From: a virus | Direction: 5' to 3' (one strand) | Length of the DNA stretch: 31,714 nt | IMG/VR virus record: IMGVR_UViG_3300046753_000575 | Span: 1 to 31,714 of that record | Shown: positions 2,375 through 16,631 of the stretch, in pieces | How the letters are laid out: the number at the start of each line of letters is the position of its first letter | How positions within the stretch are numbered: the stretch's first letter is position 1 | Made by a program: the position numbers and the translations under genes | The notes under the pieces: generated by a model | The model's database searches: none | Seen by the model: only the letters and a program-made list of their open reading frames with translations | Told to the model about the DNA's origin: nothing

Positions 2375-2965
2375 ATGAAAAAACATACAAAATACATTAT
2401 TGAGTACGAAAATGTTTTAGAAGATGGTGTTATTGATGACATCATGAAAGCATTTGATTCTATTCGAGGTCGCAGACTGCTGAAAGGTGAGCGAAATAAA
2501 GATAGAAAAAACTATGCCCATTATCTGGGTATGTGGAAAAATGATCCATATTTGTACTATACTGAAAGAAAAATTTCTCAATATGGGGAATATTGGTTAG
2601 GAAGATATAGAGAAGATTGTCCTGAAATTGAGTACTCAATGATGAGTGAATATCCAATTTTAGAAAATTTTGTCTATAGATACTACGAGACAGGAGATCA
2701 ATACAATTGGCATGTCGATAAATCTCATACCGACATACAGTTAAAAATTTCTTTACTACTATTTTTAAACGATGATTTTGAAGGCGGTGAACTTGCTTTT
2801 GTAAATGATAATTTAAAAATTAAACCTAAGAAAGGAAGCGTGGTGTTTTTCCCATGTGGTCCTTATTTCTTGCATTCATCCACACCAATACTTGAAGGTA
2901 ATAAACATGTTGTCTGGAACTGTTATGGACAAAAAGCTACACCCCCTGATAAAACATACTTCTGA
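2375..2965 (+). CDS. 2OG-Fe(II) oxygenase, prolyl-4-hydroxylase-like
   Basis: A 196-residue double-stranded beta-helix dioxygenase that would couple 2-oxoglutarate decarboxylation to hydroxylation of a protein or small substrate. The iron facial triad is visible as H113-x-D115 (YNWHVDKSH) and distal H167 (FLHSSTPIL). Lys177, ten residues after the distal His, is the position and residue that bind 2-oxoglutarate in prolyl-4-hydroxylases. The strand LLLFLNDDFEGGEL near 128-141 and the KPKKGSVVFFP turn are typical. The start at 2375 keeps the family N-terminus (YIIEYENVLEDG). It is only four bases from tRNA-Leu, so any ribosome-binding site lies within the tRNA. It overlaps pcyA. The substrate is unknown; a virion protein or host protein is possible. 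Confidence 0.85.
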   Translation: MKKHTKYIIEYENVLEDGVIDDIMKAFDSIRGRRLLKGERNKDRKNYAHYLGMWKNDPYLYYTERKISQYGEYWLGRYREDCPEIEYSMMSEYPILENFVYRYYETGDQYNWHVDKSHTDIQLKISLLLFLNDDFEGGELAFVNDNLKIKPKKGSVVFFPCGPYFLHSSTPILEGNKHVVWNCYGQKATPPDKTYF

Positions 2966-3653: not shown

Positions 3654-6600
3654 ATGCCTCTAACTAGACTTGATAACCTGTATTCAAGTAAAACTGGTAA
3701 GTATCTGTACGTATCACCAGATGACTTCAATGCAACGGATGAATTAGATAACAGGGGCAACAGTCCTCTGCGTCCGTTTAAGACGATCCAAAGAGCGTTT
3801 ATCGAAGTATCTCGATATTCGTATCTTCCAGGAAGCAATAACGATAGGTTTGACCAGTTCAGCATCATGCTGATGCCTGGTAACCATTATATTGATAACC
3901 GTCCTGGTCTTGTGACTGAGAATGTCGTTGAGGCACGATATTTTGATGCTGCAAACTTAATTAACGCAAACCGCCAAGAAATCATTGATTGGGCAGTTGC
4001 ACAGGTGCCTGTTGAGCACCCTGATTTTTATTATCCAGGCGATCCACAAACAGGAGAGTGGTCTCGCTATAAGGATGCATTTAGACTCATCCAAAAAAAC
4101 CGTGGAGAAATTATTGACCGTGCAGTAGCAGAAGTTACTGTAGATCATCCTGATTTCTTCTTCCCAGGAGATTCACAAACTGATACTGGTTCTAGATATG
4201 CTGATGCATATCGCATGATCCAAAAAAACAAGAGTCAAATCTCTCAGGATGCATTCAACTTTATGAATGCAAACAACCCACCTTCTCCATTGCCTAGTGG
4301 GTATAATTCATCCTGTGTTCGTGACATTAAGCATATGATGGATGCTGTCACTTTGGATGTATTCCAGGGTGAAGGAAATGTTCACACTAGGAATTTCATT
4401 AAGCAATACTTTAATAGTGAAGGTACTGACTGGGTAGGTCCGAAAAAGTTCTATACACCCACTAATGCGACATATAATCCCGCATCTGGTGAAGTTGTAG
4501 TTACTTTCCCACAGTCACATAGTCTCACTACAGGTGAAAGGATCTATATCAAGGAAGGTGGTCTGTCCTTTACTTGTGATATGGATGGAAATCAGGCAGT
4601 TAAGTCATATCCACGTCGTGGTGAAGATCCTTATGCAATCAAAGGATTCACTATTACAGCAACAACTGCAGATACTATTACATTCCTGGCAGGTGCTGCA
4701 GGTACTAATAAAACTTGGACACCTTCAAGCGCAGTTTATAATGCAGCAACTGGAGATTTAACTCTAAGTCTTGGTCAGCATGGTCTTGCTGTTGGTAAGC
4801 ATGTTGTATTGGAAGATAATTCTTTTACATACACATGTGATCAAGATGGAAATACTGTACAAAAAACATACCCACGTCCTGGTGTTGATCCTTATGCTGG
4901 AAAATCAATTGAGATTACTAGCGTATCGTCTGCAACTGCAACTGCAACCGCTGCATTGTATACAGCATCATCTGGTGATATTGAACTTACTATCGCAAAT
5001 CACGGTTTCCAGGATGGAGACTATATTCTAGTTACTGACAACTCATTGCAGTTTACTTGTGACTTGGATAGTAATACATCTGTAAAATCATATCCTAGAC
5101 CCCAATATGACTATCCATCAGGCAGATGGATGGAAGTTAGCAATACAACTACTAATACCTTTACGATTAATGTTGGTCCTTCCAGTTACACAGGAAACCA
5201 CACCTTTGCTGGTGCTACTGCTGATGGTATTCTGCATCAGACTGGTGATATCACTATCAACGTTGGTGATGGTGGTAGTGCATCTGGTTCTGTCCATCAA
5301 TTTGTCTCAGCAACTGCTGGTGCTGTCAAGTTTGAACCCAATACAACTCATCAGTTTGATAGCGCACTAGAAGGTGCTATTGAAAGTGATACGGTAGGTC
5401 TTCGTGGTGAAGAATCCCATGCACTAACTGCATTTAGTAAGGCAGTCAAGTACATGAAACTTGCTATTACTAATAACTATGTTTCTACATCTAGTCCTGG
5501 TACAGAGTATCAAGATTTCTCGGTAACACCTGATCCTAATACTTCTGACAACACTGATCTTACTTCTTGTTCTGACGTACAGACATATATTGATAACCTC
5601 TATTCTGTTATTGATAGTGTTTTCTCGAATTCAGATCTTCAATTAAGAAACGGTCTGTTTGATCTGAGTAATGTTCTGCCTGCAGAAGTTACTACTACTA
5701 AACTTGGTCCAGGTGAACTCAAGTGTAAGCGTGACGTTGGTCAATTCGTAGACTATTTGGGTCTCGACGTTCATGCTGTAGGTGGTAATGTCTACACTAG
5801 AAAACTTCTACAAAATTACTTTGATGCATCTGGTAACAACTGGGTAACTGATGGTCTGCAAGGAGAAGTAGCACAGTCTCGTACTGTTTTTTCTAAAGCA
5901 ATCGAACAGATGCTTCTTGCAATTACTAATCAATTGCATGCTTATAAAGATACAACAATTACTGCTGGTTTCTCTACTTTTGGTCAAGGTCCTGTTATTC
6001 AGGAAAATCTTCTATCTGGTAATCCTGCAGCATGTGCTGATGTCCAAACACTTATTAATAATCTAGGTGCTATTGTTGATCAGGTTATTAGTGACGAAAA
6101 TCTAAGTAATCTACCCGAAGAAACTCAATCAGCAATTCAAAATGCTGGCGAAGCAAAATGTAAGCGTGATGCTGGTATTATTATTGATGCGTTGGTTTCT
6201 GATATCAGATCTGATGGTAATGCAAACATCATTACATCTGCTAAAGCATACTTCGACAGATTTGGAGTTCCTATCACTAATGGTCTCCTAGGTGAGCAGA
6301 ACGAATCAATTACGGTATTCAATGCAATTGCTGACCATGCAAAATTGGCAGTTTCTAACAGACTACTTTCTAAGGATCTGACTATTTCTTATGGTCCTGC
6401 TTATGCAAATGCAAATACAGCAGATGTTCCTTACAGTGGATCTGGTAATCCTGCTGTATGTCAAGATGTACAAGCATCTATCTCTACACTTATTCAGATT
6501 GTAGTTGATACTATTCAAGCAGGTAATCTAGACAGTCTTGCAGCAATTAAAGTTACTGGTGTTCTTCCTTCCTTTAACTATAACAGAGCTCTAGAAGAAT

Positions 6601-9600
6601 GGCAGGACAACTCGATTGTTGATCTTTCCAATGCAGACAACGTTCTTTATAAGTTTAACGCTGCTAAGGGTGGTGCTATCGTCCCTAGAGGATGTTCTTT
6701 GATTGGTTATGACCTGAGACGTACTGTTGTTCGTCCTCTATATGTTCCCGATCCTGCTGATACTACACAACCAAGAACATCTATCTTCAATCTAACTGGT
6801 GGTTGTTACTTGTGGCAGTTCACTATTAAAGATGGTGATCTATCCGCACAATCTCCATTGTATGATGCTAGCGCAGGTGTTGGTAAAGTTTACTATCAGA
6901 ATGGCAATACTTCACTTGCAATTCCTGAGTATTCTCACCATAAAATCTGCATCATGGAGTATGCAGACAGATCTGATCTTGACAACTACTACGAAAAAGT
7001 AGGTAAGGCATTCCAGCAGTTCCAACAATCTATTGATGATGGTGGTCTGCAATCCCTGGTACAAGAAAACAGAATTGTTGGTCCTCTATCTGATAGTAGA
7101 ACTATTGAGAGCATCAAAATTGATGACTTTGCTACATTTAGTGGAACACTTAACAATACAGAGACAATTAGCAATGTCACTAATGCTGATGAACTGAAGG
7201 TAGGATTTGAGATCACTACTACTGATGTTAGCGTTACGATTGAACCTAATACTACTGTTGCTAATATTTCTGGTACTACAGTTACTCTAAGCAAACCAGT
7301 TGTCGGCAGTGGCGTTAAGTCAATGAAGGCATCTTTTGGTTATGTTACTGCAACAGTAACAACCAAAATTGATCATGGTTACTTTGAAGGTCAATATGTT
7401 GCTATCATTAACTCTGGACTATCTGACGAAATCAACGGTACTTTCAAAGTTATTGAGATCAACCAGGTTAATCCTAAGATCTTTAAGTATGAAGTCTATG
7501 GTAAGACTGCAGCTTCGCTATCTTTAGTCTCTGGACAGACATATCTGTCAGGTGAAGTCGGCGGAGTTAGCACAAACGCGGTAGTTCTTGCGGAAATTGA
7601 CTCTGTTGAGTCCGCATCTCCTTACGTGTTTAACTGCTCGATCCGCTCCACTTGGGGTCAATGCGGAATGTGGGCGGATGGATCTAAGGCAACTGGATTC
7701 AAGTCAATGGTCGTAGCTCAATATACGGGAGTTAGCCTTCAGAAAGACGATCGTGCTTACATTCGTTACGACAGATTTACTAATACTTGGAACCAAGCAT
7801 CACTTACTGACGCATTTGCTACTGTTCCTTATCACACTAAAGGTGATGCATATTGGAAAGATGACTGGAGAAACTTCCACATTCGCGCATCGGATGACTC
7901 ATTCATTCAGTGCGTCTCGGTCTTCGCTGTTGGTTTCTTCGATCACTTCCTAATGGAAAGTGGTGGCGATATGTCCATCACGAACTCTAACTCTAACTTT
8001 GGTAATACATCACTTCACTCTATTGGTTACAAAGGTTTTGCTTTCAACCAAGATAAAGGTGGTTACGTTACTGACATTATTCCTCCAGCAACTATTAGTG
8101 CTAGTGAAGTAGAAATCAACCAGTGGTATACACTTGACGTTGATGCATCTAACTCTAGAACTAACCATACAAGACTTTATATTGCTGGTGATGACATCAG
8201 TGATCCTGAGAAGAAACCTGCTACATCTATTAATGGATTTAGACTTGGTGCTAGATCTGGTGAGCAACTACTTGTCAACCTTGATCGTTATGCAACAGAA
8301 CCTACTGGTCCTAATGAATTCTCGGCACAACTAGAACCAAGTGGATTTAAAACTTGGACAGTTGGTGTAGAAACACTAACACCTGCTTCTGCTAATATTA
8401 ATAATAGCGCACAAGATGCTGCTAATAGAATTGAAGATAATAAAGAATTTATCCAATCTGAAGCATATCAGTATATTATTGAAAAGAATCCTGGTCTTCT
8501 GACAAAAGCAGGCATTACTATTTCTAAATGTGAAAGAGACATTGGATATTTTGTTGATGCTGTAGTTAATGACTTGCGTCTAACAGGTAATATCAATAGT
8601 ATTCAGGCAGCAGAAGGTTATTATATTGCTGGTACACTTGCATATATCTCTAATGAGTTGAACGAAACAATTGATGCTCTTGAATATGTCAAGACTATCA
8701 TGATCGCAGCAATGCGTAACTTCGACTTTGTTGTTAGAGGTTGTGCGGTATTTGATAATAGTGCAATCGTAAATGTTCCTACTACTCAGGGCATTATGGT
8801 TGGTATGAGTGTAGCAGAATATTCTGCTGGATCCTTTACTGGATCAACTCTCAATCCTGGTGCTGTTCCTACTGCTAATATTCCTCTAGACACTGTAGTC
8901 AAACGTATCATTAGCAGTACCCAAATTGAATTGGGAACTCAAAATTCGGCACTTAATAATGGATTCTCCCAAGCAGCTGCTGGTGATTCTCCTAATGCTA
9001 TTCTGTGGTTCAGTACTGCTTCAGGTACATGGACAAATATAGCACCAACCACCGACACTACTATTACTCCATACAATGAAGTTGATGGTAATGGTGATCC
9101 TCTTCCTGAGTGTGTTGGAATTGCAACTCTAATTGAAGGTTACTTCGAGCAAGTATTCCTGGTACTTAACAATGGTTACACCGATTTGGGTGGTACTGAA
9201 GTTGATGCCCACAATGCTATTATTTCTAATAAGCGATTTATTGCTACTGAAGCAGTAGAGCGTGTTGCAACTGATGCTACTTATTCTGGCACAAAATTGG
9301 GTCAGGGACTGCTAGCATCCACTGGTGAAACTATTGAAGATGCTTGTATTGATGACGTTGAGACTGTTCTAAATGAAATTGCATTCGATATTAAATTCGG
9401 TGGTAACAGTAGAACATGGGATGCAGCAAATCTGTATAAGTCATCTGCATCTGTTATCGGTGAAGAAGCAGAATCTATTGCAGTATTCAATATTGCTAGA
9501 GATCTTGCAATCGCAGCAATGCGCCAAGAGACAATCACTGTTCAAGGAACACATGGTCTGACACAAGTTATTGACTCACAAGTTCCTCCTGACTATGATC

Positions 9601-12600
9601 AGAATGGTGTTCTTGAGAACCCACTATGTGCAGGTATTGCGAACCAGATTACTACATCGATTGCATTAATTACCTCTGGTATTAATAATGGTTCTCTTGG
9701 TAACAAGACAATGCCTATCATTAGTAGCATTACTAAGGTAGAACCAACATTGAATGCTGGTGCATTGGCATCGAGAGCAACATTGTTTAGTCTTGCTACA
9801 GGAACATTCCTTGGCAATCCTAATCCACATAACCTAGAATCTGGTACTGCTGTTAGACTTGTACCTAGAGCAAAAGCAGGTAGAAATCCTGATAAGCGTC
9901 TGATTAGACTGCCCAAAGGATTTGATACAAATACCAAGTACTATGTCATTGCTCCTGGCAGAAATCTTTATCCAGAAAACTTCGCAAACCAAAGCAATGT
10001 TGTTACAGTAACAGAAGCATCTGGTACATCTTTCAGTACTCCTGATGCTACTCGCGCTAGTGCAGCAGGTCTTTATCGTTCTGTTATTGCACAACCTAAG
10101 GAAGATACTAACACAAATGTTAATGCAACTTATACTGCATTAGCATCTGGTACTGGACTTAAGTTTGATATTGTAGTCAATTCTGATGGTAGTATTCAAG
10201 CAATTACAGGTAACGCTGGTGATTCTAAGATTGTAGATCCTGGTTCTAGATATCAGAATGGAGACCTTGTTGTCATCAGTGATGGACAACTAGGTGCTAC
10301 TGGTGCTGCTGATATTGAAATCGAGATCACTGCAGTTTCTGCTGCTGATTATCCTGGTGCATTTGATGGAACGGAAACTAACAAGTTGATGCTTGCTACA
10401 TCTCCTGAGAATGCTGCAGCAGGCATCTACATGTATTCACCAGAAACTGACTCTGTTGATCCTGACGTAGAGATTGAAATTCAGCAATATGTTCTAGACG
10501 GTAAGTACAACCTTCACAGATATAAGTGTTCTGTTGTTGGTGCTTCTGAGATTGAATCTTCAGTTGCACACATCTTTGATGTTCCTGCACCAAACACAAC
10601 TCCACAAGAAGTATTTGTTAGAGTTGCTGCAAACATTCAAGGGTCTACGCTTCCACAACTTAGTGGTACACAAGCAAGTCTTGAAATTCCTACTGATACA
10701 ATTTACTATGTACGTTATGTAAGTAACAAGCGTTTCACCTTGCATGAAAATATTTCAGATGCTGAATCTGGTGACAGAGCACTTACATTCGTAAGTGGAA
10801 CTGGTTTAGATTTCTATGTCTACTCTAACAAGCGTACCTCACCAGTTAAGTTTGATCCTACGTACACTTCATCCATCAACACTACAGGTCTTTGGTATCT
10901 TAATGTTGTTGATGAAAGTAGTACTGCTAGTGTATATAATCGCTATAGCATTCTGTCTAGATTCCATGGTGGTGCAGAACTGTCTACTGACTATCAGTTT
11001 AAGACAGATCCTACACTTGATACCAGATATCTACGTGTTAAAGATCCTAGAGAGAAAGAAAATAGAGTCTACAGACTGCGTTATGTTGTTCCTTCCTATC
11101 TGGAAACAGTTCGTGACCCTCTCAATGGTTTCGTTATTAGAACTAGAACTGATGACAAGCGTCGTCTTGTTCCACAAAGAGTTCTACTCAAGCCAATTCA
11201 GGGTAATTCAATTACAACTGCTAAGTTCTATAACCCAATCGGTGCAACTGAAAGAATCGGTGCTACTAAGGCAGCATTAGCCGCAGGCGATAGCAATAGA
11301 CCACTGGATCCAGCAGTTCTAGATCTGCTTCCTGAGCAACAGAATCTATATGATCCATATGTGGCACCTAAGCAAATTGAATTTGGATCTAAGATTGCAT
11401 CTACAATTCAATCTGCTAAAGAAGTTACTCCTCTCGGACAATCAGATACTTTCCTTGAGGTGACTCTATTTGATCACACGATCATTAATGAGACAGTTAA
11501 GAATGAAATCTTTACGGTTGTTTCTGTTAATAACCTACAAGGTGGATACTTTGCACCTAATGCTACACAAAGCAACGCAGGCAATAAAATTTCTTGGTCT
11601 ACTGTATCGGGAGATAATACTTCTCAAGGTACTGCATATCTTCAGGCAGAAGTTAATGATGTCGATGGATTTGCTGCTGGATATACATTTGTACTTAAGA
11701 ACGTCGTAGGCGATCTATATTACGCACCAAATTCTATTGTTAGATTCACGCAAGGTGCTGCGAGTATGGATCTAATCGCTCAACCTAACTCTTTCGGTGA
11801 TCTTGATGGATTGGATAAAGCAGTAAGAACTAACTATCTCTATAGAGTAGAAGGTTCTAATGTATATACTATTGCTCCTGGTGATACTGTTAGTGATGAC
11901 GAAGGCAATAGTTACTATGTTTCTCAAATTGAAGACCAAGGAGATTTTGAAGATACCTTCTACATCTTTGACATTGATACTCTACAAGAACGTATTCCAC
12001 AACAGCAAGATGGTATTTACTACCTAACATGTGTTCGTGGTAATATTTCACCATTCCCAACAGGTTCTGGTGTTGGTGAGAACTTTAGAAACTTTAAATT
12101 CTCTCAACCTATTTCTCAGTTGTATCCTATCAACTATAAGAATGACCCATTGTGGTTCCAGGTTGATGGTGGAACAGGTGTTAGAGATACTGCTATTGTT
12201 GATGTTCCTCAAACTGTTTCTGCTGCTGACAACTATGTTCATGGACTAGTAACAGTTAATGATGCTAAGTCTAGCAGCACTAGAGAAATGGTCGTTGACA
12301 TGACCCTCAATAGTATGCTTGATCAGTATCAGTATACTAATAGCGTTACTTATACCAATCCTAATACTGGAATCTCCACAATTCTGGACAACAGAATTCA
12401 AGCACAGGAAGGTAACGCAACTTCTGGTTCAGAAGATAGAATGATTCCTATCTCTGGAGACTCACAGTTCCCAACAGAACGTAAACTTTACGTTGAACTT
12501 CGTAGACCATCTATTGCTAGATCTGGTAACCACACATTTGAGTATCTTGGATTCGGTCCAGGTAACTACTCAACTGGTTTCCCACTGCGCCAGGAAGTGG

Positions 12601-15600
12601 TCTTAACTGACAAACAGGACTTCTATGCTCAATCTAAGCGTGAAGACGGTGGTATCGTCTTCTACACGGGTCTGAACAGCAATGGTGACCTGTATATCGG
12701 TAACAAGAAAGTTAATGCTATTACTGGTGAAGAAACATTCCTTGAATCTGCTGCATTAGTTGATTCTGAGGACGAAGATGATGATATCGGTTCACTCGTT
12801 ACAACGTTTGAATCGCCTGTAACATTCAACAATACCATTACTGTTGCAGGTAAGGCAACATTTGCTGGTCCACTTGATATTAGTGTTGATCCTCCAGAAG
12901 GAGCAGCACTTAGAGTTCAGTCAAATGTATCTGGTGGAACAGACGATATCACGCTATTCCGTGGTTCATGGCCTGACCCAACAGATGGTGACGTTGTTAT
13001 TGCTGAGAACAGTGTTCGTGCTGCATTGTATAAACTCAATGCTAGACGCCAGATTAATAGTGTAGAGGGACAGAATTATTCGTTCAGAACGCATTTTGCT
13101 GCTGGCGAACCTTCTAACATTGTACCTTGGCAGAATAGTGACAGATACCTTACTGAACAAGAAGTTATCTATAATGGCACTGCCCCTGTTGAGTTTGGAG
13201 ATATTCTATTAAAAGGCGATACAGTAGGACTAAGTGGATCTCTTGGTTGGATCTACGTTAATGATTACCTAACATTTGAAGGTTCTGTACTTAAAATCGA
13301 GTCTACTGGCACAGAAATTATCAAAGTTACGTTGGCTGCTGGTCAGACAAATTCTGGTAATAAGATTACAGAAGATTCCTTTATCAGAATTCAGAACTTC
13401 GAGAACACCGACATCAATGGTACATGGCCCATCACGTCGTTGCTGGTTGGTGCTCCAGTATTCACACCGTCTGCTTCATTCTTCTATGTTAGAACTGATA
13501 CGGTAATTGATAGTGGTCTATCCTATGATTGGAGTAATCAAGCAACAGGTGCTGACATTCTTCGTTCTACTGCTAACTGGAAAGAAGTTGGTGTATTAGG
13601 TGCTGAATCAATCAGAACTAGAACTGAAGAACGTGGTGATTTTAGAGTTGGTATTAACACCGTCGCTAGAACAGATCATAATGCAGTCAGTAAAGGTAAT
13701 GTTGATGACTTTACAATTCCTAGAGCAAACCTTGATGTTGTAGGTACTGCATTCATCTCTGGTCAGACCCTAGTCACATACGATATTGCAGGCAATGCAA
13801 CTAATCGTTATGACGATAACTCGATGAATTCTGATGTTAGAGAAGCACTCACTGGTGGTGATCTAGCATCCCAAGGATTTATCAAGCAAGATAATGCATT
13901 CCTGGTTGGTGGTGATAGTAACAATCTTACTCAATCAGCAACTTTACGTGTTTCAACTAGTGATGTAGTAACACCCGCCACATCCACATATAAAACAGGT
14001 GGTAGACTTGGTGTTAACACCACGCTTGGATTGCTTCCTGAGCAAGAACTAGATCGCAACTTTGTTGTCTTTGGTGATGCTCGCATCACTGGAAACCTCA
14101 AGATTGAAGATGACATCAGTGTTGATGGTGGAGATATTAACTCTACATCAAACACATTCAGTTTCATTAACAACAACTCAACTATCCTTAACCTAATGGG
14201 TGAGGGTCAGCAAATTAACTTTGCTAACAATACAACACAGGATCAAACGCTTGCTATTGGTAACTCTGCTAACAATCAAGTTGTTAGAATTGGTTCCAAT
14301 GCTGGCACTACATTATTGAGTATCCATAAGAACTCAACTACTGCTTCAGTTGATATTGCTACAGTATCTGCAGATCCTGCAAATAGTTGTGAAGTTTCTA
14401 TTGGTGGTGCTTATGGCAATACTAACTCCAGCACATTGATTGGCACATATCAGACAATCGTTAGTGGTTCACTTGAAATTGGTAATGGTGTTGCTGCTGG
14501 AACTGGTACTTCTAATATCTTCTGTAGAACTAAAAAAGCAATTCTGTTCAGTGATGACAGAACTACACAAGTAGATGCATTTACAAGTGCAAACAGACTA
14601 CTACTTGGTTCACTTGGTGGTACATCTACTATCAGAAACTCACTAGGTGTTGAGGCATCTTTGAGAGTAGAAGGTAACATTAGACTTAACGGTGGTACTA
14701 ACGCTGGTATTATTGAGATTGGTAGAGGTAGATTCAGTACACCTATTGTTGCTCACAGCACTGGAAGTCTTGATCTTCCTAACATTGACTTCTACAAGTA
14801 TCAGTCTACTGGTAGACAGATCGTTACTTCTGGTAACGCACTCTGGGGTGGTACAAATGACCTTGCTGGTGGTGGACAGATTGCTGGTTTCGATAATGTT
14901 CAAACTACTGATCCTAATAGCCTACGTGCTGCTGGTACTTACAGTTCTGTTCAAGCACAAGGTGGTCAAGGTGGTGGTGCCAAGTTTGATGTACTGGTTG
15001 CATTTGATGGTATTGTTACAATTACCATTACTGCTTCTGGTACGGGATACAATAACAACGATCAACTAACACTACCTGATGCTGCTTTAGGTGGTGGTGG
15101 TGCTCCTGATATCACTCTTGATATCAACGGTGTTAATGATCCAGGTAACGTCTATTACCTGCCTATCTCTACACCAGCAGCAACTGACTTCTTTATTGGT
15201 GATCTACTCCTACTTGATCGTGGCAACGCTGCTACACCTGATACAGTAACAGTTACTGGTGGTGGTTCTATTACAGGTCTTCGTGACGAAGCAAAATCTG
15301 AAATTGTTCGTGTTGTTGGTCTAACTAACCTTACAAACCCCAACGATTCTGAAGGTTTCCGACTTGCAGTCGAGAGAGCACAAGAAGGCACTGGTGATTA
15401 TATTTCAGCAAATAATTATGAAGGTTGGACCGATCACCCAGGTGGTCAGTATGGTACTGTAATTGCTAAACTTATTAAGCAGAGTGCAGCATCATTCATT
15501 ACTGGTTCTGATGTTAATCAGGATGATGAACTTGACCAGACTGAATTTGTTGGCATTGGTGCTGGTAGTGCTAATGTAAGAATTGGTGTTGCTGAATTCG

Positions 15601-16631
15601 GTGGTGTACTAACTACTCAAGATTTCTTGAGACTCAGCGGAACTGAATTTGTTTCTGTTGCTGATGTTATTGCTAGCGATGTTCAAAAACTAACCATCAA
15701 TGATGGTGGTATCCCAGGATCTGAAGTAGTTACATTTGAAGTTGATTCTACTACTGGTGATATCATCTCTACTGGTTCACTTGGATTGGGACTTGGATAC
15801 AACAGACTTACTGTTGATGGTAACAGTGGTAACATTGCAACCACAGGTACGCTAGATGTTAACAAATCCATTACTTTAAATGGAGCAACAGTTCCTCTTG
15901 CTGAAGTATTCAATATCAATAACGGTGCAGGACTTACAACCTTCCAGGTTGATTCTGCAACTGGCAACCTATTGATGAATGGTGGCAACATTAACATCTT
16001 TGCTGTTGATGGAATCACCCCACGTCTAACAATGGATGGTGTTGGTGACTTCAAAACATATGGTTCATTCTCTGCTCTTGGTGATGGACTATCTGAATTT
16101 GGAGGTGACGTTAAGATTGCTGGTGATCTAACTGTTAATGGTGGTGATCTCGTTGTTAACAAGAACGGAAGTGAAGTCTTTGCAGTTGATGATGATGGTT
16201 CAGTCAACATTGCTGGTATTAGTAACTACTTCTCACCTACAGGTGCGATGAAGTGGGAGTACTCAGCAGACTCTATCGTTATTGGTGAAGCAAATACTAA
16301 CTACTTCTTGAATATTTCTGGAAATACTATCTTTAAGTTACCTGACTCACCAGAGATGGGTGACATGATTCGCATTATAGATATTGGTGGTACTCTAACA
16401 TATAATCAGACACTAATTGTTCGTGCGTTTGCTTTGACTCCTATTCAAGGAACTACATCTAACACAGGAACTGCACTTGTTAACCTAAATGCAGGTTCAC
16501 ATACTGGTGGTGAACTAGTTGTCCAGACACCTAATGCGTCGTTTGGTTTAGTATACGCAGGAATTTCCACATCAGATGGTAATCCTGGAGCACCTGCATC
16601 TAAAGCAGGTTGGTATTTAATCGAGGTATAA
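3654..16631 (+). CDS. Giant beta-helix tail-fibre-like virion protein, 4325 aa
   Basis: This is a large virion structural or fibre protein of the kind found in cyanomyoviruses. Residues 30-95 begin a right-handed beta-helix (RPFKTIQRAFIEV, then MLMPGNHYIDNRPG). Strands that appear to continue it resume near 985-1110 (GGAIVPRGCSLIGYDLRRT, TGGCYLWQFTIKDGD) and near 1420-1470 (ESGGDMSITNSNSNFGNTSL). Repeat-rich segments at about 98-960 and 1580-2010 look inserted. The C-terminal third has fibre-type modules: ESPVTFNNTITVAGKATFAG near 3053, GNLKIEDDISVDGGDI near 3480, and VNGGDLVVN near 4160. The end (ELVVQTPNASFGLVYAGIS) resembles other cyanophage fibre C-termini. There is no S74 chaperone domain. 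A perfect late promoter precedes it, and it is followed after four bases by a collar-domain gene. It is probably a host-contacting distal tail or baseplate-associated fibre; the exact position in the virion is unknown. Confidence 0.88.
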   Translation: MPLTRLDNLYSSKTGKYLYVSPDDFNATDELDNRGNSPLRPFKTIQRAFIEVSRYSYLPGSNNDRFDQFSIMLMPGNHYIDNRPGLVTENVVEARYFDAANLINANRQEIIDWAVAQVPVEHPDFYYPGDPQTGEWSRYKDAFRLIQKNRGEIIDRAVAEVTVDHPDFFFPGDSQTDTGSRYADAYRMIQKNKSQISQDAFNFMNANNPPSPLPSGYNSSCVRDIKHMMDAVTLDVFQGEGNVHTRNFIKQYFNSEGTDWVGPKKFYTPTNATYNPASGEVVVTFPQSHSLTTGERIYIKEGGLSFTCDMDGNQAVKSYPRRGEDPYAIKGFTITATTADTITFLAGAAGTNKTWTPSSAVYNAATGDLTLSLGQHGLAVGKHVVLEDNSFTYTCDQDGNTVQKTYPRPGVDPYAGKSIEITSVSSATATATAALYTASSGDIELTIANHGFQDGDYILVTDNSLQFTCDLDSNTSVKSYPRPQYDYPSGRWMEVSNTTTNTFTINVGPSSYTGNHTFAGATADGILHQTGDITINVGDGGSASGSVHQFVSATAGAVKFEPNTTHQFDSALEGAIESDTVGLRGEESHALTAFSKAVKYMKLAITNNYVSTSSPGTEYQDFSVTPDPNTSDNTDLTSCSDVQTYIDNLYSVIDSVFSNSDLQLRNGLFDLSNVLPAEVTTTKLGPGELKCKRDVGQFVDYLGLDVHAVGGNVYTRKLLQNYFDASGNNWVTDGLQGEVAQSRTVFSKAIEQMLLAITNQLHAYKDTTITAGFSTFGQGPVIQENLLSGNPAACADVQTLINNLGAIVDQVISDENLSNLPEETQSAIQNAGEAKCKRDAGIIIDALVSDIRSDGNANIITSAKAYFDRFGVPITNGLLGEQNESITVFNAIADHAKLAVSNRLLSKDLTISYGPAYANANTADVPYSGSGNPAVCQDVQASISTLIQIVVDTIQAGNLDSLAAIKVTGVLPSFNYNRALEEWQDNSIVDLSNADNVLYKFNAAKGGAIVPRGCSLIGYDLRRTVVRPLYVPDPADTTQPRTSIFNLTGGCYLWQFTIKDGDLSAQSPLYDASAGVGKVYYQNGNTSLAIPEYSHHKICIMEYADRSDLDNYYEKVGKAFQQFQQSIDDGGLQSLVQENRIVGPLSDSRTIESIKIDDFATFSGTLNNTETISNVTNADELKVGFEITTTDVSVTIEPNTTVANISGTTVTLSKPVVGSGVKSMKASFGYVTATVTTKIDHGYFEGQYVAIINSGLSDEINGTFKVIEINQVNPKIFKYEVYGKTAASLSLVSGQTYLSGEVGGVSTNAVVLAEIDSVESASPYVFNCSIRSTWGQCGMWADGSKATGFKSMVVAQYTGVSLQKDDRAYIRYDRFTNTWNQASLTDAFATVPYHTKGDAYWKDDWRNFHIRASDDSFIQCVSVFAVGFFDHFLMESGGDMSITNSNSNFGNTSLHSIGYKGFAFNQDKGGYVTDIIPPATISASEVEINQWYTLDVDASNSRTNHTRLYIAGDDISDPEKKPATSINGFRLGARSGEQLLVNLDRYATEPTGPNEFSAQLEPSGFKTWTVGVETLTPASANINNSAQDAANRIEDNKEFIQSEAYQYIIEKNPGLLTKAGITISKCERDIGYFVDAVVNDLRLTGNINSIQAAEGYYIAGTLAYISNELNETIDALEYVKTIMIAAMRNFDFVVRGCAVFDNSAIVNVPTTQGIMVGMSVAEYSAGSFTGSTLNPGAVPTANIPLDTVVKRIISSTQIELGTQNSALNNGFSQAAAGDSPNAILWFSTASGTWTNIAPTTDTTITPYNEVDGNGDPLPECVGIATLIEGYFEQVFLVLNNGYTDLGGTEVDAHNAIISNKRFIATEAVERVATDATYSGTKLGQGLLASTGETIEDACIDDVETVLNEIAFDIKFGGNSRTWDAANLYKSSASVIGEEAESIAVFNIARDLAIAAMRQETITVQGTHGLTQVIDSQVPPDYDQNGVLENPLCAGIANQITTSIALITSGINNGSLGNKTMPIISSITKVEPTLNAGALASRATLFSLATGTFLGNPNPHNLESGTAVRLVPRAKAGRNPDKRLIRLPKGFDTNTKYYVIAPGRNLYPENFANQSNVVTVTEASGTSFSTPDATRASAAGLYRSVIAQPKEDTNTNVNATYTALASGTGLKFDIVVNSDGSIQAITGNAGDSKIVDPGSRYQNGDLVVISDGQLGATGAADIEIEITAVSAADYPGAFDGTETNKLMLATSPENAAAGIYMYSPETDSVDPDVEIEIQQYVLDGKYNLHRYKCSVVGASEIESSVAHIFDVPAPNTTPQEVFVRVAANIQGSTLPQLSGTQASLEIPTDTIYYVRYVSNKRFTLHENISDAESGDRALTFVSGTGLDFYVYSNKRTSPVKFDPTYTSSINTTGLWYLNVVDESSTASVYNRYSILSRFHGGAELSTDYQFKTDPTLDTRYLRVKDPREKENRVYRLRYVVPSYLETVRDPLNGFVIRTRTDDKRRLVPQRVLLKPIQGNSITTAKFYNPIGATERIGATKAALAAGDSNRPLDPAVLDLLPEQQNLYDPYVAPKQIEFGSKIASTIQSAKEVTPLGQSDTFLEVTLFDHTIINETVKNEIFTVVSVNNLQGGYFAPNATQSNAGNKISWSTVSGDNTSQGTAYLQAEVNDVDGFAAGYTFVLKNVVGDLYYAPNSIVRFTQGAASMDLIAQPNSFGDLDGLDKAVRTNYLYRVEGSNVYTIAPGDTVSDDEGNSYYVSQIEDQGDFEDTFYIFDIDTLQERIPQQQDGIYYLTCVRGNISPFPTGSGVGENFRNFKFSQPISQLYPINYKNDPLWFQVDGGTGVRDTAIVDVPQTVSAADNYVHGLVTVNDAKSSSTREMVVDMTLNSMLDQYQYTNSVTYTNPNTGISTILDNRIQAQEGNATSGSEDRMIPISGDSQFPTERKLYVELRRPSIARSGNHTFEYLGFGPGNYSTGFPLRQEVVLTDKQDFYAQSKREDGGIVFYTGLNSNGDLYIGNKKVNAITGEETFLESAALVDSEDEDDDIGSLVTTFESPVTFNNTITVAGKATFAGPLDISVDPPEGAALRVQSNVSGGTDDITLFRGSWPDPTDGDVVIAENSVRAALYKLNARRQINSVEGQNYSFRTHFAAGEPSNIVPWQNSDRYLTEQEVIYNGTAPVEFGDILLKGDTVGLSGSLGWIYVNDYLTFEGSVLKIESTGTEIIKVTLAAGQTNSGNKITEDSFIRIQNFENTDINGTWPITSLLVGAPVFTPSASFFYVRTDTVIDSGLSYDWSNQATGADILRSTANWKEVGVLGAESIRTRTEERGDFRVGINTVARTDHNAVSKGNVDDFTIPRANLDVVGTAFISGQTLVTYDIAGNATNRYDDNSMNSDVREALTGGDLASQGFIKQDNAFLVGGDSNNLTQSATLRVSTSDVVTPATSTYKTGGRLGVNTTLGLLPEQELDRNFVVFGDARITGNLKIEDDISVDGGDINSTSNTFSFINNNSTILNLMGEGQQINFANNTTQDQTLAIGNSANNQVVRIGSNAGTTLLSIHKNSTTASVDIATVSADPANSCEVSIGGAYGNTNSSTLIGTYQTIVSGSLEIGNGVAAGTGTSNIFCRTKKAILFSDDRTTQVDAFTSANRLLLGSLGGTSTIRNSLGVEASLRVEGNIRLNGGTNAGIIEIGRGRFSTPIVAHSTGSLDLPNIDFYKYQSTGRQIVTSGNALWGGTNDLAGGGQIAGFDNVQTTDPNSLRAAGTYSSVQAQGGQGGGAKFDVLVAFDGIVTITITASGTGYNNNDQLTLPDAALGGGGAPDITLDINGVNDPGNVYYLPISTPAATDFFIGDLLLLDRGNAATPDTVTVTGGGSITGLRDEAKSEIVRVVGLTNLTNPNDSEGFRLAVERAQEGTGDYISANNYEGWTDHPGGQYGTVIAKLIKQSAASFITGSDVNQDDELDQTEFVGIGAGSANVRIGVAEFGGVLTTQDFLRLSGTEFVSVADVIASDVQKLTINDGGIPGSEVVTFEVDSTTGDIISTGSLGLGLGYNRLTVDGNSGNIATTGTLDVNKSITLNGATVPLAEVFNINNGAGLTTFQVDSATGNLLMNGGNINIFAVDGITPRLTMDGVGDFKTYGSFSALGDGLSEFGGDVKIAGDLTVNGGDLVVNKNGSEVFAVDDDGSVNIAGISNYFSPTGAMKWEYSADSIVIGEANTNYFLNISGNTIFKLPDSPEMGDMIRIIDIGGTLTYNQTLIVRAFALTPIQGTTSNTGTALVNLNAGSHTGGELVVQTPNASFGLVYAGISTSDGNPGAPASKAGWYLIEV
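3945..4260 (+). repeat. Tandem 43-residue (129-base) repeat in giant gene
   Basis: Three copies start at residues 98, 141 and 184 of the giant protein (bases 3945, 4074 and 4203). Copies 1 and 2 are full length, each with a helix of the form N-R-x-E-I-I-D-x-A followed by HPDF, a PGD turn and SRY. Copy 3 is truncated after the helix. Exact in-frame 129-base spacing indicates tandem duplication. Confidence 0.85.
4311..6500 (+). repeat. Cys-anchored helical repeat block 1 in giant gene
   Basis: Two alternating motifs recur. Type B is C-x-R-D followed by a helix with D-A/Y and often GGN or DGN plus a Tyr-ending helix; its cysteines are at residues 221, 691 and 836. Type D is C-x-D-V-Q-x-x-I-x-x-L; its cysteines are at 639, 794 and 936. 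Order is B, D, B, D, B, D. A helix with T-V-F/A-F-S/N followed by A-x-x-N-R/Q-L lies between B and D. The coding is mixed with the TCD repeats. Confidence 0.75.
4467..5199 (+). repeat. Three diverged TCD/SYPR repeats in giant gene
   Basis: Copies begin near residues 272, 360 and 434. Each has Y-N/T-A-x-x-G-D/E, then N/S-H-G/S-L/F, then a Thr-Cys-Asp core (Cys308, Cys395, Cys469), and then K-S/T-YPR. The spacings are 87 and 74 residues. These look like small beta-domains inserted in the beta-helix protein. Confidence 0.8.
8391..9700 (+). repeat. Cys-anchored helical repeat block 2 in giant gene
   Basis: The same module family as block 1, about 650 residues further on. Helix motifs with N-K-x-F-I-x-x-E-A occur near residues 1592 and 1848. 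Type B cysteines are at 1626 (C-E-R-D) and 1898 (C-I-D-D, with KFGGN following). Type D cysteines are at 1820 and 1992. Two complete module pairs are present, supporting repeated duplication or transfer of one domain into different places of the same protein. Confidence 0.72.

Follow-up and report, generated by a model that had tools for sequence, protein, structure and literature searches.

The window analysed here, a 31,714-base IMG/VR fragment of a virus that infects marine cyanobacteria and is closest to the Synechococcus phages Sf-FP1 and Sf-CH3, carries a giant tail-fibre gene that shares 77.5% DNA identity with its Sf-FP1/Sf-CH3 counterpart across the whole gene. As summarized in Table 1, cpeT, an oxygenase gene and pcyA lie directly upstream of the fibre gene on the same strand, and the same order was found in Sf-FP1. 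The deduced CpeT matched PF06206 over its full length (141.1 bits against a cut-off of 21; profile positions 2-181 of 181), with CpcT (4o4o, 3.1e-21) and a phage 'antenna protein' (5hi8, 5.7e-15) as PDB matches, and PcyA was identified likewise (PF05996, 1e-52; PDB 2d1e, 1.4e-48). The pcyA ORF begins before the oxygenase gene has ended; since the homology begins at about residue 24, its true start probably lies inside the ORF, downstream of position 2856. No heme oxygenase (HO) was seen within the window fragment. Genes for tRNA-Thr and tRNA-Leu occupy positions 2168-2371, between cpeT and the oxygenase gene; the S-PM2 record places many tRNAs on the fibre-gene DNA itself, possibly as an annotation artefact.

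Table 1. Positions of the bilin-related genes and of the parts of the fibre gene in the window.
Feature	Position	Strand	Basis
cpeT, T-type phycobiliprotein lyase, 183 aa	1447..1998	+	PF06206 4.8e-41
2OG-Fe(II) oxygenase between cpeT and pcyA	2375..2965	+	PF13640 6.8e-13
pcyA, phycocyanobilin:ferredoxin oxidoreductase, ORF 252 aa	2856..3614	+	NF002760 250.5 bits vs equivalog cut-off 206
Giant tail-fibre protein, 4325 aa, five phycobiliprotein-like modules	3654..16631	+	phrog_4527 short tail fiber protein, 5672 bits
N-terminal part, residues 1-87, common to module-free fibres	3654..3914	+	62% identity to S-SM1 fibre 1-87
Two partial module repeats, helix B-like (NANRQEII..., QKNRGEII...), ~residues 100-179	3951..4190	+	Sequence, AF2 helices
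Module 1, first half, residues 186-262; Cys221, C-V-R-D	4209..4439	+	Module HMM 4e-19
Nested all-beta insert in module 1, residues 263-581; three repeats with FTCDxDGN	4440..5396	+	Absent in Syn1; AF2
Module 1, second half, residues 582-655; Cys639, C-S-D-V-Q	5397..5618	+	Module HMM 1e-25
Module 2, residues 674-816; Cys691 C-K-R-D, Cys794 C-A-D-V-Q	5673..6101	+	Module HMM 4e-34
Module 3, residues 813-958; Cys836 C-K-R-D, Cys936 C-Q-D-V-Q	6090..6527	+	Module HMM 7e-42
Resumed beta-helix, residues 985-1541	6606..8276	+	37.6% identity to S-SM1 fibre 97-540
Module 4, first half, residues 1588-1690; Cys1626, C-E-R-D	8415..8723	+	Module HMM 4e-37
Beta insert in module 4, residues 1691-1807	8724..9074	+	Strands 107-203 of AF2 model
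Module 4, helix H, residues 1808-1842; Cys1820	9075..9179	+	phmmer: phycoerythrin beta helix H, Cys on Cys
Module 5, residues 1850-2014; Cys1898 C-I-D-D, Cys1992	9201..9695	+	Module HMM 3e-43; AF2 vs PDB phycoerythrin beta, Z 16.7

The fibre protein holds 24 Cys residues in total. The initial annotation had described it as a beta-helix interrupted by two blocks in which C-x-R-D and C-x-D-V-Q modules alternate, and all ten cysteines that it listed were found exactly as claimed, alternating in five pairs (221,639), (691,794), (836,936), (1626,1820) and (1898,1992). A single profile HMM matched the main pieces of both blocks (E 1e-18 to 1e-43, a level not expected by chance), confirming that the same module fills both. 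The wording of the motifs held for block 1 and proved looser in block 2, where Cys1898, Cys1820 and Cys1992 stand in C-I-D-D, C-V-G-I-A and C-A-G-I-A, respectively. Overlooked at that stage were a third repeat type in block 1 (about residues 262-581), the adjacent cpeT and pcyA genes, and the identity of the modules with phycobiliprotein domains. The third repeat type consists of three all-beta units of about 80 aa (FTCDxDGN ... K-x-Y-P-R) with Cys308, Cys395 and Cys469, and a 77-aa piece of this insert resembles a segment of the phage phi92 endosialidase (VIA Z 7.8). At the position in Syn1 that corresponds to the two partial repeats before module 1, the module HMM matched weakly (E 0.003).

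The only Pfam match of the fibre was Phycobilisome (PF00502; 9.8e-13, 48.8 bits against a cut-off of 22.2), the best stretch being residues 1585-1635 in the first half of module 4. Single modules alone are often weak to this profile (8 of 22 at E<=1), and in a control on 14 genomes PF00502 matched in Synechococcus elongatus only. When residues 1573-2011 were searched as a single sequence against the PDB, phycoerythrin beta was among the few weak matches, and the alignment set the C1898 region against the Cys82/84 site and C1820 against the second of the two bilin cysteines. With a profile of 22 phage modules, the best 60 of 174 PDB matches were all phycobiliproteins or their close kin (best 6e-6), C-x-R-D being aligned onto C-x-R-D. 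Modules 4 and 5 were modelled together by AlphaFold2 (residues 1585-2015; pLDDT 83.9, pTM 0.80). The best 50 matches to this model from each of Foldseek and VIA all have the phycobiliprotein fold, nearly all of them being phycoerythrin or phycocyanin beta chains, and the best VIA match was phycoerythrin beta (7s96_B; Z 16.7, 165/176 residues, 2.8 A). The fold was thus seen in the model of modules 4-5, and modules 1-3 were assigned by sequence and helix pattern; an 890-aa model of block 1 gave Foldseek and VIA matches mainly to the beta insert, which dominated the query.

These PDB profile, AlphaFold2, Foldseek and VIA matches indicated that the two motifs, taken earlier for separate modules, are halves of one domain that occurs five times: C-x-R-D is helix E with the Cys84 bilin site, and C-x-D-V-Q is the start of helix H with the beta-Cys155 bilin site. 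The homology of the modules to the phycobiliprotein family is firm. They have the same whole-domain fold and helix order as phycobiliproteins, and keep C-x-R-D with Asp at the Cys84 site, the second Cys at the beta-Cys155 site, the conserved Asn in helix B and the Tyr in helix F. Unlike phycobiliproteins, the phage domains stand in tandem within a structural protein, share only about 20% identity with that family, have a long loop and beta inserts separating helix F from helix H, and would bind a bilin that is as yet putative; moreover, module 3 overlaps helix H of module 2, which thereby also serves module 3 as its helix B region.

The cysteines had been proposed to pair with each other or to bind metal. 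In phycobiliprotein structures, Cys84 holds the bilin by a thioether bond and Asp87 holds it by the pyrrole nitrogens. To the regular pairs of cysteines in the window, which would suit a disulphide or metal module, must be opposed that the two Cys of each module map to two separate bilin sites of phycobiliproteins, that no His/Cys cluster pattern is present, and that modules of the array type described below have about one Cys each. This reading was rejected on account of the bilin sites and the array modules, and we regard it as extremely improbable.

The conservation of the bilin sites was assessed in a set of 256 modules sharing less than 70% identity with each other (mean pairwise identity, 30%). 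The equivalents of Cys84 and Asp87 were kept in 238 of 255 (93%) and 243 of 255 (95%) of these non-redundant modules, and both together in 93% of the array-type and 94% of the other modules; Arg86 is frequently Asp in those of the cyanophage type. The second, Cys155-like residue was present in all five window modules and in 78 of the 89 non-redundant cyanophage-type modules covering the site, and in none of the 34 array-type modules covering it. T-type lyases serve beta-Cys153/155 (PMC10452541), and the absence of the second Cys where no T-type lyase was found fits with lyase and site going together.

The array-type phages (contigs L074-L100, except L092) encode 9-25 tandem modules in one protein, and neither psbA nor CpeT was found in the array contigs searched. 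In their module proteins, 454 of 635 cysteines (about 70%) fall on the Cys84 site; one such protein of 4187 aa has 27 Cys for 22 modules, and this ratio of approximately one Cys per module excludes intramodular pairing in the array type. In the two longest array contigs, G017 (274 kb) and G020 (207 kb), the gene for a heme oxygenase adjoins that for a short PcyX-like bilin reductase, a pair whose use in the pcyX phages is unexplained (PMC11480375); nine of ten PcyX-like contigs other than G017, most of them fragments, showed no modules. A bilin reductase and modules were also found together in G043. No relative of the array-type modules was detected on scanning bacterial genomes. The bilin-binding globins termed BBAGs, which are loaded without a lyase (Rockwell 2023; PMC10151467), are likewise C-x-R-D globins that have no part in light harvesting and whose genes lie close to those for HO and bilin reductase, and the position beside bilin biosynthesis genes was found in the window and Sf-FP1 as well (pcyA and cpeT upstream). 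However, BBAGs have been described as separate bacterial globins, whereas the phage modules are repeats in virion proteins and are linked mainly to a T-type lyase.

Comparison with shorter fibres bore out the suggestion that a module had been inserted and duplicated within a beta-helical protein. The N terminus and beta-helix of the window fibre are homologous to those of cyanomyovirus tail fibres (phrog_4527, phrog_529), including the short fibres of S-SM1 (1320 aa), P-SSM2 (1908 aa) and SynMITS9220M01 (1963 aa), which, unlike the window fibre, have no modules. The flanks of the beta-helix are borne out by S-SM1, where residues 1-87 and 97-540 correspond to 1-87 and 985-1481 of the window fibre. 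In general, residues 1-87/91 of the short fibres matched window residues 1-87/91, and 10-25 residues later the match continued from window residue 980-986 onwards; since residue ~87 is thus joined almost directly to 985, block 1 is an insertion. The proposed edges of the first gap accordingly held; those of the second are blurred, the short fibres having no similarity from about 1481-1543 to about 2352 or later.

The copy number of the module is variable, with four in the S-PM2 fibre, five in the window and Syn1 fibres and up to 25 in other proteins, and the module-free beta-helix part matched 458 phage records, the modules 170. Module 1 is continuous in Syn1, whose residues 260|263 match 261|582 of the window fibre; as the window module is split by the all-beta triplet, the latter is one insert nested in another. 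In the AlphaFold2 model, a beta piece splits module 4 likewise.

Searches with a profile of the five window modules gave 1087 matches in 201 ORFs of 175 loci, which included every related fibre compared as well as other large virion genes. The pelagiphage HTVC008M and T4 had no modules, nor did gp85 and gp122 of S-CREM2. At loci L018, L017, L232 and L015, modules reside in other giant virion genes (e.g. T4-GC969) adjoining the gp6/gp7/gp8/gp9 baseplate genes. Occurrence in such further genes indicates that the domain spread between structural genes. Syn19_088, which is T4-GC969, bears modules, and the module protein of S-SM1 is 59-63% identical to it; T4-GC969 has been detected in purified S-SM1 virions (PMC3037559). 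This shows that phage particles contain a module-bearing relative, namely T4-GC969 rather than the window fibre itself. No report of phycobilisome domains in phage structural proteins was found in the open-licence papers searched.

The association of the modules with cpeT was examined in 16 cyanomyovirus genomes, using the cpeT table of PMC3037559 supplemented for Syn1 with cpeT from RefSeq and our own search. All 13 genomes with cpeT bear modules and none of the three without it (P-SSM2, S-SSM7 and S-SM2) does; agreement by chance would occur once in 560, if the relatedness of the genomes is ignored. The outcomes for P-RSM4, Syn33 and S-SSM5 (modules) and S-SM2 (no modules) had been predicted beforehand, and all held. 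Syn1 is listed without cpeT in Table 3 of PMC3037559; its record annotates Syn1_028, and our search found cpeT. The published CpeT of S-ShM2 and P-SSM7 was not recovered by our Pfam search, and DSL-LC03 and S-SKS1 carry modules with no CpeT detected. Bilin reductases do not track the modules: most module-bearing cyanophages have none, and P-SSM2 and S-SSM7 have reductases (published as pebS plus ho1) without modules, which implies other uses for bilin synthesis. At some 55 loci, a good many of them strongly diverged, cpeT was found upstream of the module gene, an arrangement that may go back to a single ancient adjacency instead of having arisen many times. Two short CpeT-family genes (about 150-170 aa) precede the module gene at L010, L112-L114, L123, L125, L126, L132, L149, L163 and L166, and in G032 a bilin reductase gene (84044-84577) lies among short CpeT-family genes.

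Given that the modules are homologous to phycobiliproteins and share their fold, that the bilin sites are conserved, and that cpeT adjoins the module gene and is present or absent together with the modules, we infer that these virion-borne phycobiliprotein domains probably accept phage-made bilin and that the finished fibre is probably pigmented. An older beta-helical fibre would have gained five modules at two places, and beta inserts would later have re-invaded some of them. Heme would be cleaved by a host or phage HO, after which the phage PcyA would make phycocyanobilin, and CpeT would attach the bilin, its most likely target in each module being the Cys155-like cysteine; loading of the Cys84-like C-x-R-D site may involve a host lyase or proceed unaided. 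The loaded fibre would be a pigmented, light-absorbing part of the virion, whose pigment might possibly act in light sensing at adsorption, in photoprotection or purely as a structural cofactor.

Less probable, yet worth serious consideration, is that the fold was captured and duplicated without pigment as a rigid helical spacer or oligomerisation module, in which Cys and Asp would be structural, CpeT and PcyA would serve the host antenna and the gene position would reflect inherited synteny. The modules do have other structural repeats as neighbours, host phycoerythrin reportedly rises on infection with S-PM2 (PMC10452541), and both modules without detected CpeT (DSL-LC03, S-SKS1) and reductases without modules (P-SSM2, S-SSM7) would be in keeping with such a role. 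It would, however, hardly account for a Cys84-Asp87 pair kept in 93-94% of modules while the rest drifts to 30% identity, for a second Cys that is retained in the presence of CpeT and missing where no CpeT was detected, or for a cpeT status that matches the module status in 16 of 16 published genomes. That the modules act inside the cell, as a sink or decoy drawing bilins or lyases from host phycobilisomes before being packaged as fibre, would be in line with a phage-encoded lyase and reductase acting there; it is nevertheless highly unlikely, given the detection of T4-GC969 in purified virions and the occurrence of modules in phages isolated on Prochlorococcus, which lacks phycobilisomes (P-HM2, P-SSM4 and P-SSM7).

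Should the fibre be pigmented as we propose, a light sensor on it is an attractive idea, because adsorption of several cyanomyoviruses is light-dependent (PMC2984593), as cited also for WH7803 (Jia et al., 2010, in PMC9229316). A review instead attributes this light dependence to host energy, and we consider it rather unlikely that fibres and baseplate proteins with covalent bilins, making virions chromoproteins, act as a light sensor gating adsorption. If true, such a sensor would explain both light-dependent adsorption and the bilin genes in phages of phycobilisome-less hosts.

The cyanophage bilin genes cpeT, pcyA, pebS, ho1 and pcyX (PMC3037559, PMC2984593, PMC11480375) have hitherto been discussed as serving the host antenna or as being of unknown use, and the same genes are found here beside and coupled with the modules. 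What the lyase and synthesis genes are for has been described as a mystery or as unresolved (PMC3037559, PMC2984593), the puzzle being sharpest for phages of Prochlorococcus, which has no phycobilisomes, and of non-phototrophs (PMC11480375). No phage-encoded bilin acceptor was found in the open-licence papers searched, and an acceptor encoded by the phage and located in the virion makes this mystery directly testable. If bilin is there, we would know of no earlier example of a pigmented phage fibre; the fibre might then underlie light-dependent adsorption, and it would place the bilin-binding globin family in a new context. The use of phycobiliprotein domains as repeating units of phage fibres is surprising even if they hold no bilin.
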